A stretch of 64,000 bases of DNA from Streptantibioticus parmotrematis. GTDB taxonomy: Bacteria; Actinomycetota; Actinomycetes; Streptomycetales; Streptomycetaceae. The stretch is taken from NCBI RefSeq assembly GCF_019890615.1, contig NZ_JAINVZ010000003.1:186001-250000 (forward strand), in the 5' to 3' direction. The translations under genes were made by a program, and so were the position numbers. Positions within the stretch are counted from its first letter, which is position 1. Each line of letters opens with the position of its first letter. Positions 51,570 to 61,686 of this stretch are shown here, piece by piece. The notes beneath the pieces are model-generated. The model had not been told where the DNA came from and searched no databases. It worked only from the letters and a program-made list of their open reading frames with translations.

Positions 51570-52370
51570 TCAGCGACCGGCGACGCTGCGGCCCTTGCGG
51601 TACAGCGCGGCACCGGCGAGCAGGAACGCGGCACCGGCGACGCCAGCGGTCCCGGCCTGGTCGGCACCCGTGTGCGCGAGCACCGGCGGGGTCGTCACGT
51701 GCTGCGGCGGGGTGTAGTGCACCGGCTGCGACGGGACGGGCGCGTGGTGCGCCGGCGGGGTGTGGTGCTGGGGTGCCGGCGGCGTGTGGTGCTGCGGCGG
51801 CGTCACGTGGTGCGGCGGCGGGCAGTGGTGGGCCGGCGGCTGGTGGCCGTGGTGGTGCTGCGGCGGCGTGACGTGACGCGGCGGCGGGCAGTGGTGCGGC
51901 GGAGTGGGCTTGTGCTCGTGGGTGACCGAGACGTTGCCGCAACTGTTGCCGAACGTGGGGTTCAGCGCGCCGACCACGTCGACGGAGTTGCCGCACGCGT
52001 TCACCGGCACGTGGACCGGCACCTGCGCGGTGTTGCCCGAGCCGACGCCCGGGGAGCCGACGCTGTGGCCGACCGCACCGGAGCCCGCCGTGGCGTGTCC
52101 GGCACCGTGGCCGTGGCCGTGGTGGACCGAGACGTTGGCGCACTTGTTGCCGAACGCCGGGTTGAGCGCGCCGACCACGTTGACGGTGTTGCCGCAGACG
52201 TTGACCGGCACGTGGACCGGCACCTGGACGGTGTTGCCGGACAGGACCCCGGGGGATCCGACCGCGGCTCCGGTCGCGCCCGCGTCCGCGTAGGCGCAGC
52301 CGCCGGTGACGGCGAGCACGCCTCCCGTGGCGACAGCGGTGATCAGGCCCTTCTTCGCGACCTGCCTCAT
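51570..52370 (-). CDS. chpC: Long chaplin with sortase signal (ChpC-like)
   Basis: A 266-residue cell-wall-anchored chaplin that helps make aerial hyphae hydrophobic. Signal peptide (1 to about 29), two chaplin domains (about 31-79 and 97-149), each with GN-V-QVPVHVPVN-CGN and a Cys pair, a His/Pro linker (about 150-230) containing HHCPPP twice, then sortase motif LAHTG (231-235), a membrane segment and Lys/Arg tail. LAxTG is the class E sortase signal. ATG at 52370 follows AGGGAA. The linker is longer and richer in His than I would expect of ChpC. Confidence 0.93.
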   Translation of the reverse strand: MRQVAKKGLITAVATGGVLAVTGGCAYADAGATGAAVGSPGVLSGNTVQVPVHVPVNVCGNTVNVVGALNPAFGNKCANVSVHHGHGHGAGHATAGSGAVGHSVGSPGVGSGNTAQVPVHVPVNACGNSVDVVGALNPTFGNSCGNVSVTHEHKPTPPHHCPPPRHVTPPQHHHGHQPPAHHCPPPHHVTPPQHHTPPAPQHHTPPAHHAPVPSQPVHYTPPQHVTTPPVLAHTGADQAGTAGVAGAAFLLAGAALYRKGRSVAGR

Positions 52371-52402
52371 GTGTTCCCTGCCTTCTGGTGTATCCGGGTA
52401 CA

Positions 52403-52420
52403 CGCGGGCGACCGCCCGCG
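52403..52420. other. Hairpin between chpH and chpC
   Basis: 8-bp stem CGCGGGCG (52403-52410) with 52413-52420, two-base gap, just upstream of chpC. It may reduce read-through from chpH or mark a separate chpC transcript. Confidence 0.35.
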
Positions 52421-52556: not shown

Positions 52557-52790
52557 TCACTTGTTGACGCAGGTGTTGCCGAAGGCGGGGTTGAGCAGCC
52601 CGATGATGTCCACGGTGTTGCCGCAGATGTTGACCGGAATGTGAACCGGGACCTGGATCACGTTGCCGGAGATGACACCGGGCGACTGCACAGCGGCACC
52701 CTGGGCACCGGAGTCGGCGACGGCCATGCCCGCACCCGCGAGCACCAGACCGGTGGTGGCAGCCGCAGCGGCGACGACCTTCTTGATCAT
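52557..52790 (-). CDS. chpH: Short secreted chaplin (ChpH-like)
   Basis: A 77-residue secreted surface-active protein: signal peptide (1 to about 26), then one chaplin domain with VIQVPVHIPVNICGNTVDII and a Cys pair (CGN, NTC). Such chaplins assemble into amyloid-like fibrils at the air-water interface. ATG at 52790 follows a perfect AGGAGGA. It lies 186 bases upstream of the long chaplin, as chpH lies next to chpC in S. coelicolor. Confidence 0.95.
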   Translation of the reverse strand: MIKKVVAAAAATTGLVLAGAGMAVADSGAQGAAVQSPGVISGNVIQVPVHIPVNICGNTVDIIGLLNPAFGNTCVNK

Positions 52791-53004
52791 TGTTCCTCCT
52801 CGTTGGCAGTGCGGTCCCAGCCGCGGACCGCACTGACCTAACGAAGTCGCCGGGGGCGGGCAACGAGCGATCGAATCCATTCACCCGTTCCGGCTAAGGC
52901 CGTACACGTAACCGAATGATCGGACGCGGTCGGAACCCGGCGCGCGAGCTGTCGACCTGAGCTGACGTTGCGTCAACTTCGGTCGGCACCAGTGCGGCAG
53001 GGGT

Positions 53005-58928: not shown

Positions 58929-60371
58929 ATGTCGGTCGATGCAGGCCTTGGCGTGGAATCAAACGGGGATTCCGGGGATTCGCGTGCGCAGAACGGCCAG
59001 GCGCAATTGAGCCTGAGCACCGCCGCCGCGCGGAACCTGGCGACCACGACCAAGTCCGCACCGCAGATGCAGGGCATTACCTCGCGCTGGTTGCTGCGCA
59101 TTCTGCCATGGGTCCAAGTAGCGGGTGGCACGTACCGGGTCAACCGGCGGCTGACCTACACGGTCGGCGACGGCCGGGTCGACTTCGTCCAGACCGGGTC
59201 CGAGGTCCGGGTCATTCCCGAAGAGCTGGGCGAGCTGGCGCTGTTGCGCGACTTCGGCGACGTCGAGGTGCTGCGCGCGCTGGCCGGCCGTTTCACCCAG
59301 CGGGAGTTCGAGCCGGGCCAGGTCATCGTGGAGGCGGGCGCCCCCGCCAACCACGTCTTCCTGATCGTCCACGGCAAGATCGACAAACTCGGCGAGGGCA
59401 AGTACGGCGAGCCGGCCGTGCTCGGCGTGCTGGCGGACGGCGACCACTTCGGCGACCGTTCCCTGGGCGACGAGGACGGCGCCTGGGAGTTCACCGCCAA
59501 GGCGAAGACGGCGGTGACGGTGATGTCGCTGTCCAGGGAGGAGTTCGCCGCGGTCGCCGCGCAGTCCGAGTCGCTGCGCGAGCGGGTCGCCGAGTACCTG
59601 GCGGGCTCGGGCCCGGCGCGCAACAAGCACGGTGAGGCGGAGATCGCCCTGTCCTCGGGCCACGAGGGCGAGGCCCTGCTGCCCGGTACGTTCGTGGACT
59701 ACGAACTCTCGCCGCGCGAGTACGAGTTGAGCGTCGCCCAGACCGTCCTGCGGGTACACAGCAGGGTCGCCGACCTCTACAACCAGCCGATGAACCAGGT
59801 CGAGCACCAGTTGCGGCTCACCGTCGAGGCGCTGCGCGAGCGCCAGGAACACGACCTGATCAACCACCGCGAGTTCGGGCTGCTGCACAACGCGGAGTAC
59901 AGCCAGCGCCTTCACGCCCGGTCCGGCCCGCCGACCCCGGACGACCTGGACGAGTTGATCAGCCGCCGCCGCAACACCCAGTACCTGCTGGCCCACCCGC
60001 GCACCATCGCCGCCTTCGGCCGGGAATGCAACAAGCGCGGGCTCTACCCGGGCAATGTGGAGTTCCACGGAAACGCCGTGCCGTCCTGGCGAGGAGTTCC
60101 CCTCCTCCCCTGCAACAAGATCCCGGTCAACGGCGGCAACACCAGTTCCATCATCGCGCTGCGAGTCGGCGAGGACAACCAGGGCGTCATCGGGCTCCAC
60201 CAGGCCGGAATCCCGGACGAGTTCGAGCCCAGTCTCTCGGTGCGATTCATGGGAATCAACGAGAAGGCGATCATCTCCTATCTGGTGACCGCCTACTACT
60301 CGGCGGCCATTCTGGTTCCCGACGCGATCGGCGTCCTGGAGAATGTCGAAGTCTCCCTCTCCCATGACTGA
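58929..60371 (+). CDS. Family 2B encapsulin shell protein with cNMP-binding-domain insertion
   Basis: A 480-residue HK97-fold protein expected to assemble into a protein compartment. A disordered N-arm (1 to about 45) and [20 protein letters not shown] lead into the shell fold. Residues 105-225 are an inserted cyclic-nucleotide-binding-like domain ([34 protein letters not shown]). The shell fold resumes with [20 protein letters not shown] and ends in [10 protein letters not shown]. The phosphate-binding cassette lacks the Arg expected for cAMP. ATG at 58929 follows GGGGAGGG. The downstream prenyl synthase is the likely cargo. Confidence 0.92.
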
Positions 60372-60398
60372 CATTCCCTGAAAGGGCGTTGGGCGTAA

Positions 60399-60460
60399 GG
60401 CAGGGCGCGCGTCACAGGATGGACGCGACAAGCGGCATCCCGATGACCGCGCGCCCTGCC
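60399..60460. other. Long intercistronic hairpin between encapsulin and prenyl synthase
   Basis: Perfect 13-bp arms GGCAGGGCGCGCG (60399-60411) and 60448-60460 enclose 36 bases that can pair further. It begins 27 bases after the shell gene stop. No T-run follows, so it may attenuate or stabilise rather than fully terminate. Confidence 0.7.
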
Positions 60461-60583
60461 GAACGCTTGTCCTCGCACGCCGGTTGCCGTCACCGTAAGT
60501 GGTGGTGATCTCACCCGTTTCCCCCCTCGTTCAGTTCGCGCAGCCCTGACCCAAGTCCTCACTGAAGCCGAGGTGCGTCAACC

Positions 60584-61645
60584 ATGGGAATCTCCACGCT
60601 CGACCGCGAAGGCATCGATCGCGACGGCCACGAGGCGGCGGCCGTGCTCGCCCGTGCCAGGCAGTCGGTGAACCCGGTGCTGAGGTCGGCGGTGGCTTCA
60701 CTGCCCGGCTCCATGCGGCGGATCGCCGGCTACCACTTCGGCTGGCTCGACAGCGACGGCGCACCGGCGAGCGGCGATTCCGGCAAGGCGATACGTCCCG
60801 CGCTGGTGCTCGCCTCCGCTCAGGCCCTCGGGGGCCCGCACGCAGCGCAGGGTGCCGTACGGGCGGCGGCGGCCGTGGAGTTGGTGCACAACTTCACCCT
60901 GCTCCACGACGACGTCATCGACCGCGACCCGACCCGTCGGCACCGTCCCACCGCGTGGTCGGTCTTCGGCAGTGCCGACGCCATCCTCGCCGGTGACGCC
61001 ATGCAGGCCCTCGCGCTGCGCGTGCTGGCGGAGGACGACCACCCGGCGTCGGCGCGGGCGGCGGCCCGGCTGGCGTCCTGCGTCATCGAACTGTGCGACG
61101 GGCAGCACGCGGACTGCGACTTCGAGCACCGCGACGACGTCTCGCTGCGCGAGTGCCTGGCGATGGCGGAGGCGAAGACGGGCGCGCTGCTGGGGTGCGC
61201 GTGCGCCCTGGGCGCCCTCTACGCGCAGGCGCCGCCGGAGGCGGTGGAGGCGATGGACGCCTTCGGCCGCCAGGTCGGGCTGGCGTTCCAGCTCATCGAC
61301 GACCTGATCGGCATCTGGGGCGACCCGCAGGTGACGGGCAAGCCGGTGGGCGCGGACCTGGCGGCCCGCAAGAAGTCCCTGCCGGTGGTCGCCGCCCTGC
61401 GTTCCGGCACCCCCGCCGGGGCGGAGCTCGCCCGGATCTACGGAACTGACGAGCCCCTGACCGCCGCCGAGCTGCACGGCGCGGCGGAGTCGATCGATCG
61501 CGCGGGCGGCCGGGACTGGGCCCAGATGCAGGCCTGCGACCGCATGGCGGGCGCGATCGGCCACCTGTCCGGCGCGATCCCGGACGGCGCACAGGCCGGT
61601 GAGCTGCTGGCCCTGGCGGAACTGGTGACCCGCCGCAGCCACTGA
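60584..61645 (+). CDS. Polyprenyl diphosphate synthase (probable encapsulin cargo)
   Basis: A 353-residue trans-prenyltransferase that condenses isopentenyl diphosphate onto allylic diphosphates. Substrate Lys/Arg in GKAIRP (68-71), first Asp-rich motif HDDVIDRD (D109-D113), second motif QLIDDLIGIWGDP (D239-D240; the last Asp is Gly, as in many Streptomyces enzymes). Phe104, five residues before the first motif, suggests a short product such as GGPP. The N-terminal tail is only about 20 residues. ATG at 60584 follows GAGGTG. It lies 212 bases after the shell gene. Confidence 0.93.
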   Translation: MGISTLDREGIDRDGHEAAAVLARARQSVNPVLRSAVASLPGSMRRIAGYHFGWLDSDGAPASGDSGKAIRPALVLASAQALGGPHAAQGAVRAAAAVELVHNFTLLHDDVIDRDPTRRHRPTAWSVFGSADAILAGDAMQALALRVLAEDDHPASARAAARLASCVIELCDGQHADCDFEHRDDVSLRECLAMAEAKTGALLGCACALGALYAQAPPEAVEAMDAFGRQVGLAFQLIDDLIGIWGDPQVTGKPVGADLAARKKSLPVVAALRSGTPAGAELARIYGTDEPLTAAELHGAAESIDRAGGRDWAQMQACDRMAGAIGHLSGAIPDGAQAGELLALAELVTRRSH

Positions 61646-61654
61646 CCGCGATCC

Positions 61655-61686
61655 GGCCGGGCCCAGGCGCCGACCTGGGCCCGGCC
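61655..61686. terminator. Terminator after the prenyl synthase
   Basis: Perfect 13-bp stem GGCCGGGCCCAGG (61655-61667) with 61674-61686, six-base loop, ten bases after the gene. Confidence 0.82.

Follow-up and report, generated by a model that had tools for sequence, protein, structure and literature searches.

Family 2B encapsulins linked to polyprenyl transferases (PT) are among the most numerous predicted encapsulin classes, and about 900 operons of this kind were catalogued in 2021, 888 of them in Actinobacteria (PMC8346489). The same survey described the cargo class as carrying a disordered N-terminal domain of 50-100 residues with no motif (PMC8346489). The Family 2 cargos cited as studied are cysteine desulfurases and terpene cyclases, and a literature search, run without subscription papers and preprints, found no bench study of a PT encapsulin and, for the years after 2021, a single relevant paper, the 2025 study of Streptomyces lydicus. 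There, the Enc2 protein alone forms a T=1 particle of 28 nm, with its outward-facing domains above the two-fold pores; motif 1 is diagnostic in two-component systems, being TVWK in S. lydicus Enc1 and RRRK in Enc2, and the Family 2B insertion domains studied are reported as not binding cyclic nucleotides (PMC12407261).

Judged by sequence, the locus at positions 58929-61645 of the window (the whole 64-kb stretch of DNA that was analysed) is another representative of this catalogued class, in which the pairing of a Family 2B shell with a polyprenyl transferase is established. It consists of two open reading frames on the + strand, a 480-aa shell protein at 58929-60371 and a 353-aa synthase at 60584-61645, which are separated by a gap of 212 nt and which both start and end exactly where the preliminary description had placed them. 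With a single shell, a single short-tailed putative cargo and no further genes, the pair offers a compact test case that could show whether isoprenoid chain building is truly compartmentalised and whether a short peptide suffices for shell loading.

Results

The shell protein

58929..60371, + strand: Family 2B encapsulin shell gene, 480 aa, with Enc2-type motif 1 (SRR-RN); NF041163, Pfam SrpI-like, PDB 9bix/9bhu/9bje, alignment of motif 1 with the published motif
59301..59564, + strand: cNMP-binding-like domain in the E-loop, residues 125-212; PF00027, 60 bits, and structural matches to cyclic-nucleotide-binding domains
59616..60356, + strand: HK97-type shell domain after the insertion, residues 230-476; PF19307, 460 bits

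The upstream gene had been assigned to Family 2B, and the assignment is well founded, as the protein reaches 776 bits (1.1e-233; cut-off 400) against the NCBIfam model NF041163 encap_f2b, contains the SrpI-like domain at residues 230-476 and is 59-67% identical to the solved 2B shells 9bix, 9bhu and 9bje over the structurally aligned parts, with a sequence match to 9bix of E 1.4e-208. Structure prediction of the 480-residue protein, proposed in the preliminary description as a check, did return the 2B shell 9bhu (Z 26.6, 335 residues, rmsd 5.3), but the model is poor (mean pLDDT 57.7), and the claim of an HK97 fold therefore rests on the identity to the solved shells. The cNMP-like insertion claimed at residues 105-225 agrees with the PF00027 match, and the resumption of the shell domain at residue 230 fits an insertion within the E-loop. 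Judged by eye, the inserted domain is without the usual phosphate-binding arginine.

When encapsulins and a single Toxoplasma protein are set aside, the inserted domain (window 59244-59600, residues ~106-224) is matched best in sequence by the PKA regulatory subunits 6h4g, 6flo and 6ftf, which are of kinetoplastid origin and responsive to nucleosides rather than to cAMP; these matches are a possible ligand lead.

In the alignment, motif 1 of the shell reads SRR-RN, which is of the Enc2 type, and the synthase-adjoining shell is also Enc2-type in most of the aligned two-shell operons. From the self-assembly of S. lydicus Enc2 and the Enc2-type motif 1 found here, we infer that this shell would likewise self-assemble into an icosahedral particle.

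The prenyl diphosphate synthase

60584..61645, + strand: prenyl diphosphate synthase gene, 353 aa, putative cargo; NF041169, 503 bits, PF00348, model pLDDT 92, Z 44.0 to 3nf2
60908..60922, + strand: first Asp-rich motif (FARM), DDVID, residues 109-113, with Phe at -5; translation
61298..61312, + strand: second Asp-rich motif (SARM), variant DDLIG, residues 239-243; translation, DDxxG in all matches checked

The product of the downstream gene is, by its family matches, an all-trans prenyl diphosphate synthase. It scores 503 bits against NF041169 f2_encap_cargo4 ("family 2 encapsulin cargo protein polyprenyl transferase"; cut-off 450), in line with the known cargo class to which it had been attributed and to which the ~900 published operons are already assigned (PMC8346489), and matches PF00348 at 4.5e-62; against the IdsB model it scores 402 bits, under the cut-off of 475. 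The AlphaFold model of the synthase (pLDDT 92) finds its best match in 3nf2, a polyprenyl synthetase of S. coelicolor (Z 44.0 over 332 residues, rmsd 1.7). Of the two Asp-rich motifs described earlier, the FARM DDVID is canonical; the SARM is DDLIG and thus of the form DDxxG, not DDxxD, though this form is normal for the clade and occurs in all 132 encapsulin-type synthase matches and in 15 paralogue matches.

The Phe five residues ahead of the first Asp-rich motif is present as described earlier; however, the GGPP product that had been deduced from it does not follow. The residue is found in 132/132 encapsulin-type synthase matches and in 19 of 20 paralogue matches, as well as in synthases beside geosmin-type cyclases, and it is shared by the paralogue C9:64074-65087 of this genome, which adjoins two genes of the squalene/phytoene-synthase family, as would be expected for a hopanoid-type FPP synthase, and is probably an FPP synthase. 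Being near-invariant in the clade and its paralogues, Phe -5 is uninformative as a chain-length marker. In related genera the encapsulin-linked synthase stands in one operon with geosmin-type cyclases, the substrate of which is FPP (PMC8346489); taken with the Phe -5 of the probable FPP synthase, these operons make C15 at least as likely as C20 for the predicted short-chain product.

Isoprenoid genes and other neighbours

The earlier statement that no terpene genes lie nearby holds, as no terpene cyclase, squalene/phytoene synthase or UbiA gene was found in the 64-kb window, and elsewhere on the contig the first such genes are met some 105-114 kb past the pair. The neighbours within the window encode a thiolase, an alpha/beta hydrolase, an MFS transporter, a NAGPA-type protein and a MarR regulator. 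On the minus strand, at 51570-52403 and 52557-52880, there are two open reading frames that appear chaplin-like by eye, a long one with a LAHTG sorting-like end and a short one.

Other actinobacterial families, chiefly Pseudonocardiales, contribute ten related loci (L068, L070, L072, L073, L077, L085, L087, L092, L094 and L097) at which IspH (LytB) is encoded directly 3' of the synthase. IspH makes IPP and DMAPP, and its position at these loci puts the supply of both inside the synthase cluster, which supports an isoprenoid role. At several related loci, geosmin-type cyclases with the GPTGLGT motif are found in the same operon.

One of the related loci, L085:1-9268, unites a geosmin-type cyclase, a 2-MIBS-like cyclase, a 2B shell, a synthase, IspH and a further cyclase with GPSGLGTSAAR. 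The cyclase loading motif also occurs as an orphan in small open reading frames of two encapsulin operons, L044:5515-5847 (~111 aa, GPTGLGTASTR) and L076:~441-617 (~58 aa, GPTGLGTAAAR), both with plausible ribosome-binding sites and the former without a Pfam domain; these may be tag-only adaptors or cyclase remnants. Several chance occurrences are expected for the GPTGLGT heptapeptide alone, and the longer motif looks unlikely by chance.

Linkage of shell and synthase across genomes

Among 121 Streptomycetaceae genomes, 59 contain a synthase above the NF041169 cut-off, and in all 59 a 2B shell is located directly upstream on the same strand. For 47 of these the shell came from the shell-search listing, and the remaining 12 loci were fetched and all contain a shell, spaced 85-239 nt from the synthase by match boundaries. 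In contrast, of 91 listed synthases below the cut-off none lies near a shell among the matches listed, and no shell was found in the sequence retrieved around 20 such synthases; the control rests on the shells among the matches listed and on these 20 loci. The pairing of the shell with a prenyl diphosphate synthase, as originally noticed in the window, is far beyond chance. In a named collection a shell is present at 70 of the 80 closest loci, and five of the other ten are interrupted by contig ends. By sequence, a Family 2B Enc2-type subunit and an all-trans prenyl diphosphate synthase are inherited as neighbours throughout Streptomycetaceae.

No third gene beside the pair is common to the sampled loci, and therefore no better cargo candidate is encoded nearby; likewise, none of the neighbours of the pair in the window belongs to a family shared with the other sampled loci.

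Five close relatives of the synthase (L033, L069, L088, L090 and L095) are without a shell within ~6 kb. The N-terminal peptide of the shell-less Amycolatopsis members is similar to that of the shell-linked relative L096, and their loci have possibly lost the shell secondarily.

The synthase N-terminus

60584..60616, + strand: N-terminal peptide of residues 1-11, predicted to be disordered and a candidate signal for loading; pLDDT <50, recurring N-terminus in relatives

The synthase does not have the long disordered domain that the survey describes for its cargo class. The part ahead of the Pfam match is 65 residues long, but pLDDT is <50 for residues 1-11 only, and a confident helix begins at about residue 12 in the AlphaFold model. 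The 50-100 residue domain is a reported general trait of the class that lies outside the NF041169 definition; because it is absent here, only membership of the sequence family, not packaging, is claimed for the enzyme. The N-terminus has 49 residues before the YHFG landmark, compared with mostly 42-143 in encapsulin-linked enzymes and about 35-60 in most paralogues, where only assignable start codons were counted. The GPxGLGT cargo motif was found neither in the synthase nor anywhere in the window, and the gap between the two genes holds no adaptor open reading frame with a convincing start.

The extreme N-terminus nevertheless recurs. In hand-collected N-termini of the wider clade, the first 8-9 residues are similar, with Arg at position 8 in 25 of 26 and Leu at position 6 in 20 of 26, and an added linker, which may reach ~60 residues, follows the peptide in some cases and is missing in others; several Streptomyces have instead M-x-E-F-M-T-E followed by longer linkers. 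It is conceivable, though we hold the idea only tentatively and at less than even confidence, that these synthases are loaded through a conserved ~8-residue peptide at the very start of the chain, which reads M-G-[IT]-x-T-L-[DE]-R in the wider clade and M-x-E-F-M-T-E in several Streptomyces and is joined to a linker that varies greatly in length. If true, such an arrangement would explain why the 2021 survey lacked a targeting motif. In a codon test the ratio of nonsynonymous to synonymous differences was 2.3 for the peptide, 7.7 for the unaligned stretch that follows and 0.57 for the core, values that are suggestive only and partly circular because the sequences were chosen by a pattern.

Inverted repeats

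60393..60466, no strand: inverted repeat in the shell-synthase gap, with arms at 60393-60411 and at 60448-60466; may be an attenuator, an mRNA protector or a terminator
61655..61686, no strand: perfect 13-nt hairpin past the synthase, probable terminator; inverted-repeat search

Just past the stop codon of the shell gene there is an inverted repeat with a perfect 13-nt core that 0/1000 dinucleotide shuffles reach; the repeat lacks a T-tract. Arms of at least 11 nt occur in 20 of 50 homologous gaps against 0.9 expected, an enrichment that may reflect ordinary gene-end hairpins, as related sequences are included and there is no control set of other gaps. The repeat could act by limiting read-through into the cargo gene, by protecting the mRNA of the shell or by terminating transcription, and in the last case the shell and the synthase would be separate units.

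Discussion

The most probable explanation, which we favour with fair though not high confidence, is that an Enc2-type shell encloses the short-chain (C15 or C20) synthase as a shell-plus-cargo unit, the product of which is used elsewhere. About 60 subunits would self-assemble into a T=1 shell displaying the cNMP-like domains outside, over the two-fold pores, with one or a few synthase dimers loaded inside, most likely via the short N-terminal peptide and not via a long disordered domain. IPP and an allylic diphosphate would enter through the pores and be converted to a C15 or C20 prenyl diphosphate, which would then exit to terpene synthases encoded elsewhere, several of which are present in the genome, while the inter-gene hairpin may hold the enzyme level below that of the shell.

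Packaging is made less simple by the model and sequence of the synthase, that is by the missing 50-100 residue disordered domain, an N-terminus no longer than that of shell-less paralogues and the lack of GPxGLGT; the absence of a product-using gene nearby and the strong hairpin between the genes further count against a packaged unit. The short disordered stretch of 11 residues, the paralogue-like length, the missing known cargo motif and the hairpin would all suit an arrangement in which the two genes are co-inherited and co-regulated, with the synthase unpackaged in the cytosol or docked on the shell exterior and another protein as the real cargo. We regard this as unlikely in view of the strict 59/59 linkage, the lack of any third gene common to the sampled loci and the ~900 such operons assigned in print (PMC8346489).

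Enclosure of the synthase also has to be weighed against two roles that start from the shell. The particle might be chiefly developmental or regulatory, of the EshA/EshB type, with the outer domain sensing a small ligand and the synthase secondary: in S. coelicolor the eshA paralogue eshB (SCO5249) is up-regulated in development (PMC3878966), and the S. venezuelae eshA is in an operon with 2-MIB genes yet dispensable for 2-MIB synthesis (PMC6428758). However, the linked enzyme is kept at every above-cut-off locus sampled, and the reported failure of studied Family 2B insertion domains to bind cyclic nucleotides (PMC12407261) speaks against such sensing, so this role appears improbable. Least probable of all, and by a long way from the favoured explanation, is a mixed compartment built from this shell together with a second Family 2B shell encoded in the genome (C1:450141-451490, L098; 65% identical), which would bring the synthase and a 2-MIB cyclase together despite their distant loci. 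The second shell stands in a 2-MIB operon with a cyclase that bears GPKGLGT twice, followed by a methyltransferase, relatives hold cyclase and synthase in one operon, and S. lydicus Enc1 and Enc2 do form mixed shells (PMC12407261), but both shells of this genome have an Enc2-type motif 1.

Compared with the catalogued PT encapsulin operons (PMC8346489), the locus likewise couples a Family 2B shell with a polyprenyl transferase and comes from an actinobacterium, and it differs in that its synthase has ~11 disordered N-terminal residues, not 50-100, and is without adjoining precursor or tailoring genes. A possible counterpart in S. coelicolor is formed by EshB/SCO5249, a cyclic-nucleotide-binding-like EshA paralogue (PMC3878966), and SCO5250, which is listed among isoprenoid-precursor genes (PMC7494193), a correspondence suggested by adjoining locus numbers and annotation only. 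The fold and the domain insertion are shared with the solved shells of S. griseus (9bhu) and of S. lydicus Enc2 (9bix) and Enc1 (9bje), at the 59-67% identity given above, whereas the S. lydicus proteins belong to a two-component putative xylulose-kinase system with a native cargo that has not been determined. The closest comparison within the same genome is the EshA-type shell of the 2-MIB operon on contig C1, which is likewise of Family 2B and 65% identical, but there a terpene cyclase with GPKGLGT motifs stands as putative cargo in place of the synthase, and a methyltransferase comes next.
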